DNA of 50,411 bases, taken from positions 1 through 50,411 of IMG/VR virus record IMGVR_UViG_3300046500_000035, one strand, 5' to 3'. Every line of letters begins with the position of its first letter. Within the stretch, counting starts at the first letter, position 1. The translations under genes and the position numbers were made by a program. A model generated the notes under the pieces. That model saw only the letters and a list, made by a program, of their open reading frames with translations, was not told the DNA's origin and searched no databases. Of the stretch, positions 1 through 50,332 are shown in pieces. This DNA is from a virus.

Positions 1-123
1 ATAGCCGCGGCAAAGATACTGCATGGCTTTGGCCGCACGTTTCGGGGTGTCGAGCAGGCCTTCGCGGGAAACGTCCTCGCCGAGTTGACCAAGGATCGCG
101 GTGTAGTTCTGTTCCAGTGTCAC
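1..123 (-). CDS. folE: GTP cyclohydrolase I, N-terminal part (host gene, runs off the window)
   Basis: The minus strand from a GTG start at 123 reads [20 protein letters not shown] and continues with [13 protein letters not shown], which I recognise as the N-terminus of pseudomonad FolE. FolE converts GTP to dihydroneopterin triphosphate, the entry step to tetrahydrofolate and, via QueD, QueE and QueC, to preQ0 and queuosine. Only 41 codons lie in the window. The start codon and first eight codons are inside the 30-bp att core, so integration rebuilds the coding sequence but replaces everything upstream of about position 128 with phage DNA. The integrase gene lies immediately upstream on the same strand. 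Confidence 0.9.
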
Positions 124-145: not shown

Positions 146-1354
146 TCAGAGGGGTACTGTTTCTGTCTGTACCGAATTTGTACCAATCAAGCTCGTTTCC
201 AGTTTTTCCAACTCATTCCAGTCAGTGCTGGAGTTGATCCACTTGGCATATGTGGACAGCAGCATTTGCACGCTGTGCCCGAGCTGATTGGCGATAAACG
301 CAGGATTCATGCCCGCCATTAGGCACATGGTAGCGTAGGTATGCCGGCAGTTGTACTGCCGTCTGCCCCGTATCTCCAGCTTCTCTACAGCCACCTTGAA
401 GAACTTATCGGTCAAACTGGCCTGTTGCAGGTAGTCGCTGATCCGGGTTGGCGGAAACACGTAGGGCGATTCTCTCTTCATCCTCTTCTTTTGAGACCGC
501 CGAAGCTCGGCTACCTTCTCAGCCATCTTTAGCGCATTCATGGCCCTGCTGTTGAGCATGACCATGCGTGCCGCCTTCGTTTTCGTCCGCTCCTCGATGA
601 CCTTATCCACTACGATTCGGCAGACATGAGCAAGACGCTTGTCCTGATCCACCTCATCCCATCGTAAAGCCGCAATCTCGCCAGGGCGCATGCCGGTGTA
701 GAAAGCGAATTCAAAATAGGCGGCGTAAATCCCGGTCGCGCCGCTTAGCGCTGCATAGAGCTCAGCGATTATCGCGTCAGCCTCTTCGACAGTGAACGGG
801 TCAGGCTGCTTCTTTGTTCTCCCGGGCAGCTCGATAGCATCCACAGGGTTGCGCTGGACTGCTCCATCGGTAAGAGCAGACCCGAACATCGCCCCGAGTC
901 GCTCAATGGCCGAACGTCGCACCGCCGCACTGTGCCATTTGGTTTCAGAAATGACCCGTCGCAGATCCATTGGCGAAACCAGATCGATTGGCAGCAGCGC
1001 GAAATGGGGCATCCAGTATTTGTTCAGCGATATGCGGTAGTTCTTTCGCGTTCCACCGACCACTTCCCGACCATTGAGCCATGCCTGAGCGTAGGCCCCG
1101 AACAAGAGACGAGAACTGTGGTGGGCGTGCTTTGAATTTGGGAAAAGCTCGGCGTACCGGCTGGAATCCAGAACACCGTGCTTCGCCAGGCTGATTACGT
1201 TAGCGCGTAGATCGGCGGCAGCTTTGATCCCTTTTGGCGTTTGGGGATAAGGGAGGGTCTCGCAGCGTCTTTCGCCATTCCACGTGAACCTGATGCGGAC
1301 AGATTGGCCCGCGAATTCAACTCCGGTGGGCAGTCCCATTGGCTTTCGAGCCAT
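146..1354 (-). CDS. int: Site-specific tyrosine recombinase (phage integrase)
   Basis: 402 aa. The N-terminal region (about 10-70) resembles the DUF3596 arm-binding domain of phage integrases, followed by a core-binding domain. Catalytic motifs are visible: the first Arg in [13 protein letters not shown], the box-2 YNCRHTYAT (Tyr where His is commonest, then Arg-His), LGHS, and a late STYAKW tyrosine. It catalyses integration and, with Xis, excision between attP and the folE attB. The stop codon abuts attL, so transcription through int would continue into folE. The gene overlaps the excisionase by 160 bp; ATG 1354 is preferred because the N-terminal domain needs it. Confidence 0.95.
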
Positions 1355-1539
1355 GCCTCATATCTCCTAATGCTGTAATAGATGCGCCCATCAATCTCGT
1401 TCCAGACGCCCTTTGGGATGATTCCACGGGCGCGCTTACCTTGCAGGGCTCTTCGCGTGGTCCCGACGAGTTCGGCCATCTTCGCTTCAGGTACCTTGTC
1501 CGCGACATAGGGCTCGTTCAGCTTCTCTGCTGCTGCCAT
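1195..1539 (-). CDS. xis: Putative excisionase
   Basis: 114 aa. A helix-turn-helix/MerR-like stretch (about 15-65: VPEAKMAELVGTTRRALQGK, then [20 protein letters not shown]) is typical of small directionality factors encoded next to tyrosine integrases. Start ATG 1539 has GGAGG eight bases upstream. The last 50 or so residues overlap the integrase start in another frame, so Xis and Int translation are probably linked. The C-terminal tail is low-complexity and may be dispensable. Identity rests on the motif and position. Confidence 0.7.
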   Translation of the reverse strand: MAAAEKLNEPYVADKVPEAKMAELVGTTRRALQGKRARGIIPKGVWNEIDGRIYYSIRRYEAWLESQWDCPPELNSRANLSASGSRGMAKDAARPSLIPKRQKGSKLPPIYALT

Positions 1540-4023: not shown

Positions 4024-4248
4024 ATGACATACATCGCAGATCAAAAAGACGAACTTCCAGCAGGCACCAGTCGCAAAAGCTCTGTTTGCTTTGGTTGCGG
4101 AAAAGTATTTTTCGGTGGGGCGGTTCGCTACGACGGATTCGGAGGGCCCGACACTGCACAGTCAATTTATCTGCACGCGGCATGTGCCTCGGCGATGGCT
4201 CAAGTCCTAATCTGCGATGCCTGGCCGAACCGCCGAAGAGAAAGTTAA
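4024..4248 (+). CDS. Small Cys-containing protein, opposite to the operon
   Basis: 74 aa, MTYIADQKDELPAGTSRK then SVCFGCGKVFFGG and LHAACASAM: a CxxC plus HxxxC arrangement that could bind zinc. Start ATG 4024 has GGAAGAG and AGG upstream. It is on the plus strand within a minus-strand operon, divergent from 3895 and convergent (4-bp overlap) with the DpdA-like gene. The opposite-strand frame here reads as arginine-rich shadow. No family recognised. Confidence 0.6.
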   Translation: MTYIADQKDELPAGTSRKSSVCFGCGKVFFGGAVRYDGFGGPDTAQSIYLHAACASAMAQVLICDAWPNRRRES

Positions 4249-4970
4249 AGCACCATTTCAGTTTGCGATTCACGCTGCCAGATCGGCGCGCTGTTATGTG
4301 CTTCGATCCGGTCTGCGATAACGTTTGCACGCTGTCCGGCGGTGGGCGGCACGTACATGCCGAACCGGCTGATGCTGCCGCCATTCACTGCGGCGTTCGT
4401 TGAGTCTGCGGAAGCAAAGGGCAGGCGTTGGAAGATTGCAGGGTCGAGCATTCGCAAGCCGTGAAGCCGACACGCCGGGCGGCCCTGATCGTCACAGATG
4501 GCATCCATTGCGGCGCCCATCCGCTTCCACCAGGATCCGGTGCCCGGTGTCGCCCACTGACCAGAACTGCCGATCGCAACCGTTCTCCAACACCTCGCCA
4601 GTCGTTGCAGCCGTTCAAGCGATTCGTGCAAGTGCCAGACCGGCACGCCTCGCAATTCCTCCGGCCACTGCCTGATGAGGCTGTCGTTCTCCTCTTCGTT
4701 GCCGTCGATGACGTCCGGAATCAGCGCCCAAGTGAAGCCTGGGTGTCGGTGCCAATCTTCGACCCAGCGCGTGTAACCGTCGACGTCTACCTGGCCCCCT
4801 TTCTTCCACACGGTGAACGCGCCGTTGTCGAAAACAAATGACTTGCACACATCAGCCACAATCCCGAGATCGTCTTTGCGGGGGAATGGCACAAGTGCGT
4901 GGCGCCCAGCCAAGAACTTCGCAGCGTCTTCACGCTTACCGCCCACCGGCGTGCCGTGGTAATGGATCAT
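4245..4970 (-). CDS. TGT-superfamily protein related to DpdA (7-deazaguanine DNA modification)
   Basis: 241 aa. Sequence features match the tRNA-guanine transglycosylase/DpdA fold: start YHGT; FDNGAFT (residues 47-53, Asp48 in the place of the TGT DSGG aspartate); WALIPDVID (81-89); VAIGSSGQW (131-139); CRLHG (167-171); and ASADSTNAA (186-194), where Asp189 would be the nucleophile. DpdA enzymes exchange guanine in DNA for preQ0 or related bases, which protects phage or genomic DNA from restriction. No queC, queD or queE gene is present in the prophage, so it would rely on host preQ0. The start overlaps the upstream gene (ATGA). A tRNA or other base-exchange role is not excluded. Confidence 0.7.
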   Translation of the reverse strand: MIHYHGTPVGGKREDAAKFLAGRHALVPFPRKDDLGIVADVCKSFVFDNGAFTVWKKGGQVDVDGYTRWVEDWHRHPGFTWALIPDVIDGNEEENDSLIRQWPEELRGVPVWHLHESLERLQRLARCWRTVAIGSSGQWATPGTGSWWKRMGAAMDAICDDQGRPACRLHGLRMLDPAIFQRLPFASADSTNAAVNGGSISRFGMYVPPTAGQRANVIADRIEAHNSAPIWQRESQTEMVL

Positions 4971-5212
4971 CCGCTCAACCTCACGGTTTCAATTTCGACG
5001 CCCTGGTGAGTTGCGATAATGGTCTGATCGCCGCCAAGGGTGTCGGAAAGGTGATCAGCAATCTGCTCATGCCAGCCAGTTTTGATCAGTGCCGTCGCCG
5101 CTTTGATGCGCTCGACGTGGATCATCGCTGACGATTTTATTTCGAGCCGGTAGACGATCATCTCGCCATCGGCAGGGCAGACAGCCGCGAAGGTGTGCCG
5201 GTAGGTGTTCAT
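4967..5212 (-). CDS. Small hypothetical protein coupled to the DpdA-like gene
   Basis: 81 aa, MNTYRHTFAAVCPADGEMIV, with alternating polar and hydrophobic residues suggesting a beta sheet followed by a helix (ERIKAATALIKTGWHEQIADHL written as two parts: ERIKAATALIKTG, WHEQIADHL). Its stop overlaps the DpdA-like start as ATGA, so the two are likely co-translated. Function unknown; an accessory role in the same modification is only inferred from coupling. Confidence 0.6.
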   Translation of the reverse strand: MNTYRHTFAAVCPADGEMIVYRLEIKSSAMIHVERIKAATALIKTGWHEQIADHLSDTLGGDQTIIATHQGVEIETVRLSG

Positions 5213-5279: not shown

Positions 5280-5828
5280 ATGGTGGTATTTGGATTAGAA
5301 AAAGATCAGTGGGATGTAATAAACGGGTTCGCTAATTGGCTTGCCGCCGTAGGAACAATCTCCGCTGTTGTCCTTTCACTCCGCTTGGCGCGGGCATCCA
5401 GCAGTGTCAGGGGTAAGCTCTCAGTAAACGCACGTACCATTTTTCATGGTGATGGAAGTCCCGGTCGCCCAATAATTGAATATCAGCTGATCAACCAAGG
5501 AGTGCGGCCTTTTGAGGTAGTTAGTCTTGGCTGGCATTACGGGAAACGAAAATCCAGGCGCTCTTTTATGCAGCTTTTTAACTGGAACGCCTCAAACCAG
5601 ATCCCATTGCGTCTTCAAGAAATGGAAAGAGGGGCGTGGCATTTCCAAACCGACCAAGGGACGGTCTGGTACACCAGAATGTCCGGAGAATTTAGCCGCG
5701 ACTGGAAAAGAGAGCTTCGGTCGTTGCGAGCCTTCGCAAGTCTTAGCACGGGCGAGAGTATTGAGTGCTCACCAGACCCTTTTATACTTGAGCAATTGAG
5801 AAAGGCGCTCATTGCAAGAACGACTTGA
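5280..5828 (+). CDS. Membrane-anchored hypothetical protein (cargo gene)
   Basis: 182 aa from ATG 5280 with AGGAAG upstream. One N-terminal membrane segment (about 13-34, GFANWLAAVGTISAVVLSLRLA) followed by a soluble domain of about 145 residues rich in beta-strand and Trp. It is on the plus strand, divergent from 5212 and convergent with the methyltransferase, so it has its own promoter space (5213-5279). The codon use is less GC-rich than its neighbours. Single-TM proteins of this layout are often lysogenic-conversion or superinfection-exclusion genes, but I do not recognise the family. Confidence 0.7.
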   Translation: MVVFGLEKDQWDVINGFANWLAAVGTISAVVLSLRLARASSSVRGKLSVNARTIFHGDGSPGRPIIEYQLINQGVRPFEVVSLGWHYGKRKSRRSFMQLFNWNASNQIPLRLQEMERGAWHFQTDQGTVWYTRMSGEFSRDWKRELRSLRAFASLSTGESIECSPDPFILEQLRKALIARTT

Positions 5829-5847: not shown

Positions 5848-6984
5848 TCAGGCGGCTGGGGTGGTGTCGTGGAAGACATCCATCTGCGCCGCGCCGTCCA
5901 GCCAGGCCGCGTCAATGCGCGCTCTGGCCATTGCCGCGTATTCTGGGTTCAGCTCACACAGGATCGACCGCCGCCCTTCCTGCATCGAAACCAACGACGT
6001 GGTACCGGCGCCGCCGAACGGATCCAGCACCACACCGCCGCGCGGCGCGCCCGCCAGAATGCACGGTCTTATCAGGTCTGGCGGGAAGGTCGCGAAGTGG
6101 GCGCCCTTGAAACTGTGTGTGGCCACAGTCCAGACGCTGCGCTTGTTGCGGGTCAGCAAATCCCAGCTGCTCGGCTCACGATCTGGCCGATGCGTGCCTT
6201 TGCTCTGGCCGGGAATCGGCTCCTCGCGCTTCGATCCTTCACGCTGGAAGCTGTCTCGGTTGCTCCTGGCCGATCCTTCTTTGTGGAAAGCGCCGTGCCC
6301 GCCGGCGCCGGTTGAAGTGTCCCAGCCGGCCGGAACCGTTACTCTTGGCTTCGGTACCGCATCGAACCCATGACCGAACCCCACACCTGTCGGCGTCGGC
6401 CCGTATGCCGCCGGCTCCCGAATCGCCTGCATATCGCAGTGGTACCGGCGCGACTTGCTGAGCAGAAACAGGTATTCGTGCGCTTTCGTGCAGCGATCGC
6501 GCGTCGACTCAGGCATAGGATTCGGCTTGTGCCAAATGATGTCCTGACGCAGATACCAGCCGTCATCCTGGAGCGCGAATGCGAGACGCCAAGGCATGCC
6601 CATCAAGTCTTTCGGCTTGTACTCGGCGTGAGTAGTTGCCTTGGCTTTGCGCTGGCTCGCCATCACCTGGCGCTGGCTGATCGTCGAGACACCGACACCC
6701 ATATCATCCCGGCCGTGCGCACCCCAGCTTCCGGCGTAACTGTCACCCATATTCACCCAGGCCGTTGCGTCGTCGCGGAGTACTCGACGCACTTCGCGAA
6801 ACACGGCGACCAGGCGGGCGATGAACTCGGCAGGTGTTTCTTCCAGGCCAATCTGGCCCTCAACCCCGTAGTCGCGCAGGCCGAAGTAGGGCGGGCTTGT
6901 CACGCAGGTGTGAACTGACTTGTCCGGCAGCGTTCGCATCATCTCGATGCAGTCGCCGACCAGGATCTGGTGCTGCTGGCTCAT
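5848..6984 (-). CDS. DNA methyltransferase, beta-class (N4-cytosine or N6-adenine)
   Basis: 378 aa. Motif IV TSPPYFGLRDYG (about 29-40) precedes the C-terminal motif X/I region DPFGGAGTTSLVSMQEGRRS (about 330), the beta-class order. The middle carries DIIWHKPNPMPES and a variable Gly/Ser-rich region (about 230-290) likely to be the target-recognition part. It would methylate phage and host DNA; no restriction endonuclease is adjacent, so it is an orphan enzyme, probably protective. SPPY is found in both N4C and N6A enzymes, so the base is not decided. Convergent with 5828. Confidence 0.9.
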   Translation of the reverse strand: MSQQHQILVGDCIEMMRTLPDKSVHTCVTSPPYFGLRDYGVEGQIGLEETPAEFIARLVAVFREVRRVLRDDATAWVNMGDSYAGSWGAHGRDDMGVGVSTISQRQVMASQRKAKATTHAEYKPKDLMGMPWRLAFALQDDGWYLRQDIIWHKPNPMPESTRDRCTKAHEYLFLLSKSRRYHCDMQAIREPAAYGPTPTGVGFGHGFDAVPKPRVTVPAGWDTSTGAGGHGAFHKEGSARSNRDSFQREGSKREEPIPGQSKGTHRPDREPSSWDLLTRNKRSVWTVATHSFKGAHFATFPPDLIRPCILAGAPRGGVVLDPFGGAGTTSLVSMQEGRRSILCELNPEYAAMARARIDAAWLDGAAQMDVFHDTTPAA

Positions 6985-7244: not shown

Positions 7245-7988
7245 TCAGGCAGGAATCACCGCGATGCAGGTGCTCACCAGTGTTCCTGACGCCTTGAACG
7301 ATGCATCGGGCAGGTTGACGATGCTACCGCTGCGCGCGGATATGATGCCCCGGAAGTCGCGCGCCAGTGCATCCTCGCGGAACATGACGCCAGTAGGCAT
7401 CACTGCGACGAGAAGGCCACGCGGCTTCAGGAACTTTAGGGCATGCAGGACGTGGTAGATGTCGCTGCGCTTCTTGTCGAACGGCGGGTTCATCACCACT
7501 CGGTCGTATTTCTGAGCCGGTTCTACAGAAAGGAAGTCGCCGACGACAACTGACTGGTAGACCTTTGCATCGATCAGATGCTTGGCGTTTTCCGGCAGGA
7601 GCTCGATACAGTCAACGTCGACGCCCTCGACGATCAAGGCCTCAGCAATCGCGCCGCGACCGGCCGACGGCTCAAGGGCAAACATGCCTACACCGACTTG
7701 AGCGAGATCAAGTAGCTTTGCTACCACTGCCGGCGGCGTCGGGAAGTATCCGAAGTCCTGCGGCACAGTGACCTCACCCGTCATGATGATGTTCTCCATT
7801 GCCTCAGCCGCATCGCCGTCGAACAGGTGGGCCTTGGCTTTCGTGTTCCATTTGCCGCCCGCAGCCTTCAGCGTTTTGTCCAGGCGCGCATACAGGCTCT
7901 TTTCGAGCTGTCCACCGGTGATGAAAAGCTTGTTGCCCTCAGTGCGGGATGCGCTCAGCAGCGCCATAACGTCGGTTGCGACCTTCAT
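7245..7988 (-). CDS. Class I SAM-dependent methyltransferase, N6-adenine type
   Basis: 247 aa. An N-terminal domain (about 1-75) precedes DFGYFPTPPAVVAKLLDLA, motif I ALEPSAGRGAIAEAL (about 105-118), an acidic motif II (CIELLPEN) and motif IV VMNPPF (about 162-167). NPPF and the FPTP entry are typical of phage N6-adenine methyltransferases related to the DUF4942 group. It has no separate target-recognition domain of the usual size. It may be a second protective methylase or act on something other than DNA. Confidence 0.8.
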   Translation of the reverse strand: MKVATDVMALLSASRTEGNKLFITGGQLEKSLYARLDKTLKAAGGKWNTKAKAHLFDGDAAEAMENIIMTGEVTVPQDFGYFPTPPAVVAKLLDLAQVGVGMFALEPSAGRGAIAEALIVEGVDVDCIELLPENAKHLIDAKVYQSVVVGDFLSVEPAQKYDRVVMNPPFDKKRSDIYHVLHALKFLKPRGLLVAVMPTGVMFREDALARDFRGIISARSGSIVNLPDASFKASGTLVSTCIAVIPA

Positions 7989-46672: not shown

Positions 46673-48550
46673 CTAAAACCCTCTTATAGCGTAAGAGTAA
46701 AAGCTCTCTGCCCGTTCCATTTTTACAGTGGTTTTGTAGGTGAGCTTATGGATGTTAGTGGCATTGCAAATTGCCTTATACCTTTCAAGGTCGAAATCAT
46801 CTGCGAGGCTAAAGTACCACTCATGCGGAACAGACGAAGGGAGTTGATCAACAGCATCCCGCTCAGCTTTGAATGCTTTATCAAGGCGGTAGAGTGCTTC
46901 AAATACATGATGAAATATGAAGTAATTAACCTCCTCGTCATGGTGTTCCCAATACGCCAGCATGGCCTCTTTCCACATGTGGATCAGCCAAGAGTCATTT
47001 CTACACTTGAGGTACCAGACAGAGAGAGACGAAAGGCTGCCTACGGAATATGCGGTAAACGGCCCCTCCGATGATCGATGCGTAGGATCTACCGGGCCTG
47101 TAAGGTAGCATGTCGCATCCATCCAGGTACCCCCGAACTTGCTCAACAGAAGAAGCCGCAAAATATCCGAAAAGAAAGCCGAGCGTGTACTCAACTTATC
47201 CTTTATGTGCTCAGGAACTGTTACATAATTCTTTAAGTTCGACTCATGCAATAGAATAACAGAATCTGACGGTAGATATTTCGCCATTTGGCGCTGGCAG
47301 GCAGATACCATTAGCGGTGCGTCCCCGAATCCTTGCGCCCAGTAGCAGAAGATCTTATTTGTAGAGACGTCAGCGATTGAGGATAATGATTTGTGCGCCC
47401 TATCTGTGATGGTTTTTAAATGTTCTTGTATGAAGTCATACATTAGAACTCTTGATCTGATTCTTCTTTGGTTTAGCGAAAACATCTCCAAGTGCTCGGG
47501 CTTGTATTCTGGTCGGTCCTGAATAGCAGAAATGTAGATAGGCTTCGCCTTTTCGGGAAGCTTCAGCGTGTCGTAACATTCAGCCAAACCAAATCTATAC
47601 TCTATATTGTTCGAATCAATATCCAAAAGCATTGCATAGTAGGTCTTAGCGAGCCGCCAGCGTCCATCCTTCACAAGCGCTTTAGCCTTTGAAAGAATTA
47701 TATCCTCAGCGGTAATATCTAAGGAGTAGATGCTAGCGTAATTGTCTATAGCTAGAAGCAGCCTTCCAAGCCTATCTTTATCTTCCGCATTTAGTAGGTT
47801 CAACAAGCTACAATCGTGGCTCTTTAGATGCTGGACTAACAAGAAAGCCGCCCAGATCTTTACGCTATCATCATCAGCCTCCGCCTCTGCTAGGCTGGTG
47901 ATATTAAGCAACAAAGGCCATGGCTGCTCTAGGATCTTCATTGAACCTGAGTCGAGAGCATCACAAACAGATGAGCGCGTACCACCATCGGAGACAGGCA
48001 AGCTGTCTCCTCTGTAACGCTTGGAGGATATGTTTGAGATCCCGCTCAAATTCGCAGACAGGTCAAATAGGAAATGCCGCTCAAGCGTGTGGTGAGGAAA
48101 CTCGTCCTTTCTTAGAAAAGCCTCAACCTTTAGTGAGCTTGAGCGGATTCCCCAATAGTCCGATCTATTTCCAATTGTGATTGTAAAGTTTCGCAAATTC
48201 TTCTTCGTTCTTATGCTTAACTTTGGGTGTAGTTCCTTTTCCGAGTGTATATCTATGCCTTTTGAGATTTCAAAGGACGCTTCTGACCTGCCTTCCTCGC
48301 CAAATTTTGAGGACAAAACAGCGATACCGCCATATTCACTTCCGAATATGTCGATAGGCTGGCCTGGCTTGTCGTTGTAGAAGAACTCAATCTTCCCCAA
48401 GTTTAAATATTCTGGGGTATCGGACGCAAGGGATATGTCGATTTGGGAGGTTTCTCCATCGATCTTCACTCTTAGCTTGTCGTATTCTGTTGAACCAAAA
48501 TATCCCAAAGGCATGTTTGTCCCTTCACACATTTTAATTGTAATGGCCAT
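46673..48550 (-). CDS. Glycosyltransferase with capsular-polysaccharide-synthesis domain (cargo gene)
   Basis: 625 aa on the minus strand, clearly more AT-rich than its neighbours. N-terminal beta-rich domain (about 1-150), helical TPR-like middle (about 285-345, RWRLAKTYYAMLLDIDSNNI, YRFGLAECYDTLKLPEKAKP), then a Caps_synth/Gly_transf_sug domain (about 385-490) with IFCYWAQGFGDAPLMVSACQ, RSAFFSDILRLLLLSKFGGT and WMDATCYLTGPVD; Asp478 would be the metal/nucleotide-sugar aspartate. It probably modifies LPS or capsule and so changes phage adsorption. It has its own upstream region and opposes the late operon, so it may be expressed in the lysogen. Confidence 0.82.
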   Translation of the reverse strand: MAITIKMCEGTNMPLGYFGSTEYDKLRVKIDGETSQIDISLASDTPEYLNLGKIEFFYNDKPGQPIDIFGSEYGGIAVLSSKFGEEGRSEASFEISKGIDIHSEKELHPKLSIRTKKNLRNFTITIGNRSDYWGIRSSSLKVEAFLRKDEFPHHTLERHFLFDLSANLSGISNISSKRYRGDSLPVSDGGTRSSVCDALDSGSMKILEQPWPLLLNITSLAEAEADDDSVKIWAAFLLVQHLKSHDCSLLNLLNAEDKDRLGRLLLAIDNYASIYSLDITAEDIILSKAKALVKDGRWRLAKTYYAMLLDIDSNNIEYRFGLAECYDTLKLPEKAKPIYISAIQDRPEYKPEHLEMFSLNQRRIRSRVLMYDFIQEHLKTITDRAHKSLSSIADVSTNKIFCYWAQGFGDAPLMVSACQRQMAKYLPSDSVILLHESNLKNYVTVPEHIKDKLSTRSAFFSDILRLLLLSKFGGTWMDATCYLTGPVDPTHRSSEGPFTAYSVGSLSSLSVWYLKCRNDSWLIHMWKEAMLAYWEHHDEEVNYFIFHHVFEALYRLDKAFKAERDAVDQLPSSVPHEWYFSLADDFDLERYKAICNATNIHKLTYKTTVKMERAESFYSYAIRGF

Positions 48551-50258: not shown

Positions 50259-50284
50259 CTGCCCTGCAAAACCTACTGAAAATA

Positions 50285-50332
50285 GCGGTGTAGTTCTGTT
50301 CCAGTGTCACAGGGTTGTGTTCCGTGTGGGTT
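50285..50332. repeat. attR, right attachment site
   Basis: The 30-bp core (50285-50314) is identical to 98-127; the following bases differ at 50315-50317 then match for 15 more. On the minus strand it still carries the folE GTG and first codons, cut off after codon 8-9. Confidence 0.9.

Follow-up and report, generated by a model that had tools for sequence, protein, structure and literature searches.

What do a DpdA-like gene and the short gene that overlaps it do in a Pseudomonas prophage, and does the site at which this prophage is inserted have anything to do with them? The question is raised by record IMGVR_UViG_3300046500_000035, which was analysed as a whole (50,411 bases; the window). 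Our preferred answer, which we consider probable, is that the overlapping pair forms a minimal phage DNA-modification cassette, in which DpdA would swap in a host-derived 7-deazaguanine and the partner would act on the nitrile base. The evidence for each gene, for their pairing and for the role of the insertion site is considered in turn.

The prophage and its DpdA-family protein

The record is a Pseudomonas prophage with both attachment sites. Direct repeats of 51 nt, 92% identical to each other, form the cores of attL (95-145) and attR (50282-50332). At 1-123 on the minus strand lies the 5' part of a host folE gene, a FolE1-like paralogue. It matches Pfam FolE above the cut-off (1-114, minus strand), has a GTG start at 121-123 with the N-terminus in frame, and reads leftward off the window; its first codons fall inside attL. 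The gene for the tyrosine integrase (146-1354, minus strand; PF00589, 8.6e-19) runs in the same direction as folE, from which its end is some 22 nt away, and an excisionase gene is found at 1195-1539 (minus strand; phrog_9668, 6e-41). Insertion at the folE start, with int directly upstream of folE, had been proposed in a first-pass annotation and is confirmed here by the repeats over the start, the Pfam match and the in-frame GTG. The dpdA gene and the 81-aa gene sit beyond the integrase within the leftward early operon.

The dpdA gene (4245-4970, minus strand) was assigned by its PHROG, homology, residues and an AF2 model. It encodes 241 aa with the motifs FDNGAF (D48), WALIPD (D86), IGSSGQW, RLHG and ASADST (D189). 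Among the PHROGs the protein matches phrog_887 (E=3.7e-69), and tblastn returned 158 phage records, among which the DpdA genes of phages of the Seurat and CAjan types had E-values of 1e-7 to 1e-9. A profile built from 28 homologues matched gp38 of MED16 (8e-79) and the corresponding proteins of 7-11 (2e-58), Seurat (3.8e-21), Funsized (2e-16) and Dp-1 (1e-13); in hhalign the match to Seurat DpdA reached 97.6% (E=4e-12). The first-pass assignment to DpdA is borne out by these matches. Five residues (D48, H113, H170, D189 and S190) do not vary among the 42 homologues aligned, DpdA of Seurat, Dp-1, 7-11 and MED16 included, and among them are the two aspartates that had been picked out as catalytic. 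D48 was aligned by hhalign with the Asp of the TGT motif DSGGFQ, and D48 and D189 occupy the places of general base and nucleophile, whose roles are established for TGT.

A direct match to TGT itself was sought and had to be rejected. Pfam gave the 241-aa protein no family at E<=1, hence no TGT match (PF01702). In hhalign the dpdA profile reached an insignificant 0.4% against canonical host TGT, as did Seurat DpdA with 1.3%. The AF2 model (pLDDT 85) shows a barrel-like alternation of strands and helices, and its best 50 Foldseek matches were generic TIM barrels with no TGT among them. Since neither Pfam nor hhalign nor Foldseek singles out TGT, membership in the family rests on the homology to DpdA; of the profile comparison that had been suggested as a check, the DpdA part stood and the canonical TGT part did not. 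Judged by sequence, the 241-aa protein is a DpdA-family enzyme with a predicted transglycosylase activity.

These relations bear on the question whether the pair modifies host or phage tRNA, i. e. RNA, and not DNA. DpdA derives from the tRNA-modifying TGT superfamily, phrog_887 carries the name 'queuine tRNA-ribosyltransferase', and the archaeal QueF-L, to which the partner is compared below, acts on tRNA (PMC5485725). Yet the dpdA alignment contains no invariant Cys, and the TGT zinc motif is therefore absent; 7-deazaguanine occurs in the DNA of related phages with DpdA only; and dpdA of phage 9g fails to complement tgt (PMC6884629). We regard RNA as an improbable target.

Some further DpdA- or TGT-related sequences were met in the searches. 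In the genome that carries locus L265 (G012), QueC and QueD lie no more than 4 kb from a weak TGT match (contig C4, 208370-212069), as in bacterial Dpd islands, and this host may have a 7-deazaguanine DNA system of its own besides the prophage dpdA. Five Pseudomonas genomes (L549-L553) contain a 307-aa ORF with short, weak matches to the DpdA profile (44-110), perhaps another class of DpdA in the genus. The 1.7-kb record OR850331.1, labelled 'Staphylococcus phage SA 1298 Kay', holds a dpdA of 45.9% identity, the same value as the Salmonella phage copies, and is probably a case of contamination or mislabelling.

As to the other genes of the window, two DNA methyltransferase genes lie just upstream of the pair on the minus strand (5848-6984 and 7245-7988; N6_N4_Mtase at 1.2e-44 and a weaker methyltransferase match), so that 4 kb of the phage hold three candidate genes for DNA modification. 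Roughly one in four of the Pseudomonas loci has a C5-cytosine DNA methyltransferase gene close to dpdA (Epa33, L083:3740-5830, and 19 of L003-L082), which suggests a wider anti-restriction region. In L543, where dpdA has no 81-aa partner, the region upstream of dpdA contains an ORF resembling a C5-cytosine methyltransferase. In the window, the next ORF upstream of the pair is a lone one of 182 aa (5280-5828, plus strand), on the opposite strand in the leftward operon; it matches neither PHROGs nor PADLOC, has a hydrophobic segment close to its N-terminus, and looks like a prophage-expressed moron. At the right end, a 625-aa gene (46673-48550, minus strand) opposes the late genes; part of it matches phrog_3605, of unknown function, and it is a possible moron or defence gene.

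The 81-aa gene and its pairing with dpdA

The 81-aa gene (4967-5212, minus strand) ends on dpdA: its stop codon overlaps the dpdA start in the sequence ATGA (4967-4970), an arrangement of 4 bp shared by most relatives, which suggests translational coupling. In a search with dpdA, the 81-aa gene adjoined it in 69 of 80 loci. When the 81-aa protein was the query, dpdA lay directly behind the gene in all 80 loci, with the exact overlap in 75. When all fetched loci are pooled, each of the 125 distinct copies of the 81-aa gene adjoins dpdA; this number includes loci found via dpdA, so that the unbiased counts are the 80 of 80 and a genome sample. Of the 299 Pseudomonas genomes in this sample, 10 have the 81-aa gene, each time directly before dpdA, and 11 have strong dpdA matches; about 0.4 joint cases would be expected if the genes were independent. 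The 81-aa gene is thus an obligate partner of dpdA, no copy examined being without it.

Pseudomonas phage Epa33 has both genes as well. The pairing extends to distant phages. Rhizobium phage RHph_X2_30 has the order YhhQ, an unknown gene, an 81-aa-like gene and DpdA, and in Microcystis phage Mae-JY30 the order is reversed, with DpdA before the 81-aa-like gene and an overlap of 4 bp. More pairs were found in L484-L486, with YhhQ behind, and in L487; a scan with the partner of the Rhizobium phage added one further locus only. An HMM search for a distant 81-aa homologue in the dpdA loci that do not have the gene found none, a plasmid search with the 81-aa family gave no match, and neither dpdA nor the 81-aa gene matched the models of known defence systems. 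In RHph_X2_30 the gene between YhhQ and the QueF-like gene (L410:3748-3993) also encodes 81 aa; it has no known function and is a possible fourth component.

The 81-aa protein itself corresponds to phrog_37496, to which no function is assigned. Its AlphaFold2 model (32 sequences; pLDDT 96.5) has the element order bbaabb of a T-fold (E2-11, E18-27, H33-41, H48-59, E62-69, E72-78). In the PDB, ranks 1-13 of the Foldseek matches were all archaeosine synthase QueF-Like (E from 4.2e-4, prob 1.00, TM 0.71-0.81), followed by GTP cyclohydrolase I, and in BFVD the third match bears the name archaeosine synthase. The profile comparison agrees with this: hhalign gave a score of 25.4 (E=7e-4) against five phage QueF-type proteins, compared to 10.1 +/- 2.0 (maximum 16.0) for 60 column shuffles, and the score of 22.6 against QueF plus the five proteins was reached by none of 60 shuffles. 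The scores against FolE, QueD, TGT and TrpA lay within the shuffled nulls (that of FolE was reached by 3 of 60, that of QueD by 40 of 60). With these profiles not above the shuffles and neither a CEHH nor an HGH motif present, a FolE- or QueD-like protein was rejected. By sequence search, none of 32 members of the family matched Pfam QueF (PF14489) up to E=10, and the family had no match in the PDB.

In the alignment Cys12-Pro13 fall on the CP motif of QueF and His48-Glu49 on FHE. C12 and E49 are invariant in 34 of 34 sequences, H48 only nearly so. The general acid/base Asp of QueF and QueF-L (in CPxTGQPD) has no counterpart: the TGQPD segment is shortened in the 81-aa family and contains no invariant Asp, and where the 81-aa protein has D15, L269 and L286 have Asn. 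Because fold, nucleophile and anchor are present but the catalytic Asp is missing, we call the protein QueF-Like-type and not QueF-Like. Taking model, alignment and linkage together, it looks like a QueF-Like-type T-fold, for which the fold and the two residues suggest an action on the nitrile base. The suggestion of the first-pass annotation that the linked gene may be an accessory gains strength from this fold and from the obligate pairing.

Further hints come from what stands in the place of the partner. The 81-aa gene is absent in L065, L079, L080 and L081, where another protein fills the slot with the same 4-bp overlap. The L079 protein matches Pfam Vut_1 (the YhhQ family), and the other three are 89-100% identical to it. 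YhhQ is a preQ0 transporter (PMC6884629), and YhhQ-like genes were also found beside dpdA in PEAT2, AB3P2, RHph_X2_30, L283, L284 and L285. No QueC was found in the phage studied here. On the host side QueC was found in 30 of 32 genomes, which says little since QueC is common anyway (over the cut-off in 9 of 14 control genomes). The two hosts without QueC over the cut-off are those of L283 and L285, both of which have the YhhQ-like gene beside dpdA. The gene beside dpdA tends to concern preQ0, and this supports both preQ0 as the substrate and the proposed role of the partner.

The main alternative is that DpdA acts as proposed while the 81-aa protein is no enzyme at all, being instead a carrier of preQ0 or a specificity subunit, perhaps in the form of a stable thioimide, that passes the base on to DpdA or keeps host QueF away from it. 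In its favour, the acid Asp at C+7 of QueF and QueF-L is missing. The thioimide that QueF-L forms with free preQ0 is stable and does not turn over (PMC5485725), and a transporter in the same gene slot at four loci suits a supply role. However, the Cys-Pro and Glu that are invariant here form the catalytic pair in QueF, and a protein serving only as a carrier would have no need to conserve its Cys. We see a carrier as a serious contender, if clearly the less probable one, and continue with the modification cassette in which the partner acts on the base.

The folE site and dpdA

The first-pass annotation had also proposed a functional tie between the folE site and dpdA. In this case the phage would integrate at folE to raise its expression and hence the supply of preQ0 for DpdA. 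The integration is real, and the co-directional arrangement of int and folE would fit. The survey of folE-site prophages and dpdA that had been named as a check was carried out in both directions. Eighty loci with relatives of the folE-site integrase were fetched and dpdA was sought in the 10 kb upstream; it was present in 6, and 2 of the 12 integrase loci that show folE itself beside int had it. Conversely, a related integrase (>=49% identity) lay within the 4 kb flank in 5 of 80 dpdA loci. All these counts are lower bounds, as the windows were of limited length, yet even so the contrast to the counts for dpdA and the 81-aa gene is strong.

The proposed tie is not supported by these data. As many as 74 of the 80 integrase relatives have no dpdA nearby, most dpdA relatives come without a related integrase, and other phages that bear the pair have unrelated integrases. 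Moreover, one related Pseudomonas genome contains two folE paralogues, one of which resembles the attB copy. The coupling was thus rejected by co-occurrence in both directions, integration for the sake of folE expression and preQ0 supply seems very improbable, and the position of the prophage at folE appears to be a coincidence. By this, the tempting but unsupported story of the folE site can be parted from the supported one of the gene pairing.

Proposed role of the pair and comparison with known systems

In the modification cassette, DpdA would use a TGT-type mechanism with an Asp nucleophile to put a 7-deazaguanine, either preQ0 or a related base, in the place of guanine in the phage DNA. 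The preQ0 would be drawn from the queuosine pathway of the host, the phage itself presumably making no precursor; in relatives it could be imported by the YhhQ-type transporter encoded beside dpdA. The partner would anchor the base with Glu49 and use Cys12 to attack preQ0, be it the free base or one already in DNA, and would then convert it or pass it on to DpdA. Phage DNA modified in this manner may be less visible to restriction enzymes. Going by homology and by the published relatives, DpdA most likely inserts host preQ0; going by fold and residues, the partner most likely engages the nitrile via Cys12.

The cassette is weakened by the insignificant match of the dpdA profile to canonical TGT together with the generic TIM barrels in Foldseek, by the missing acid Asp of the partner and by the modification levels of relatives. 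Phages with DpdA alone are the largest group of DpdA phages, and Hutinet et al. 2019 placed 76 DpdA phages without synthesis genes in a third group whose status is hard to predict (PMC6884629). Per million nucleotides, the DNA of phage 7-11 contains 50 dADG (PMC6884629) and that of MED16 354, which had little influence on digestion by the restriction enzymes tried (PMC8306585); in these two phages without biosynthesis genes this is only 0.02% and 0.13% of G, respectively (PMC6884629, PMC8306585).

Such traces would also be expected if the pair were decayed or neutral cargo, a relic whose modification activity has been lost. Against this stand the strong purifying selection on both dpdA and the 81-aa gene (dN about 0.05-0.18 compared to dS >1.5 where estimable), the invariant active-site residues and a pairing kept over great distance, so that we give the relic hardly any credence. 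An extended version of the cassette is that the 81-aa family founds a minimal, Asp-less QueF-Like subfamily dedicated to DNA, which would turn host preQ0 into a 7-deazaguanine derivative (archaeosine-like, an amide or a new one) in phage DNA jointly with a precursor-free DpdA, as a two-gene system spread by temperate phages. This can be offered tentatively, its chances being somewhat short of even.

Among the known systems, the singleton DpdA of the gamma-proteobacterial phages 7-11 (Salmonella) and MED16 (Pantoea; 'DpdA/TGT_1') belongs to the same family and, as here, comes without preQ0 synthesis genes. In contrast to the Pseudomonas branch with its obligate 81-aa T-fold partner, no QueF-like gene was recognised beside their dpdA. 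The DpdA of the Seuratvirus phages CAjan and Seurat is homologous to the 241-aa protein over the catalytic core, and in CAjan deletion of dpdA abolishes dPreQ0 (PMC6884629). Yet the Seurat-type protein has 306 aa and the phage a full preQ0 operon, whereas the protein here has 241 aa and its phage no QueC.

A QueF-type T-fold is clustered with DpdA, as here, in Streptococcus phage Dp-1 (queF-queC-queD-queE-folE-queT-dpdA) and in Mycobacterium phage Funsized, where genes 2-4 are QueF-like, DpdA and QueC. Unlike the present phage without QueC, these phages have genes for making the precursor (the whole pathway in Dp-1, QueC in Funsized), and their QueF proteins have 132-173 aa and the catalytic Asp, which is absent from the partner of 81 aa. 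The best fold match is archaeosine synthase QueF-Like of Pyrobaculum calidifontis (PDB 5jyx/5k0p), with Cys and Glu in register. QueF-Like, however, acts on preQ0-tRNA and has the catalytic Asp, whereas the partner is about 25 aa shorter, has no such Asp and is paired with a DNA-type transglycosylase. The limited open-access literature searched contained no case in which a precursor-free DpdA has a truncated, Asp-less, QueF-Like-type protein for its obligate partner.

Hence QueF together with DpdA in precursor-making phages is already known, and DpdA alone is a known kind of enzyme; what is new is a previously unannotated partner of dpdA with the fold of preQ0-processing enzymes. If the proposed role is true, it would explain part of the DpdA-alone group and give phrog_37496 a function, and the pair would be a two-gene, host-fed DNA modification that could be transferred to a laboratory strain.
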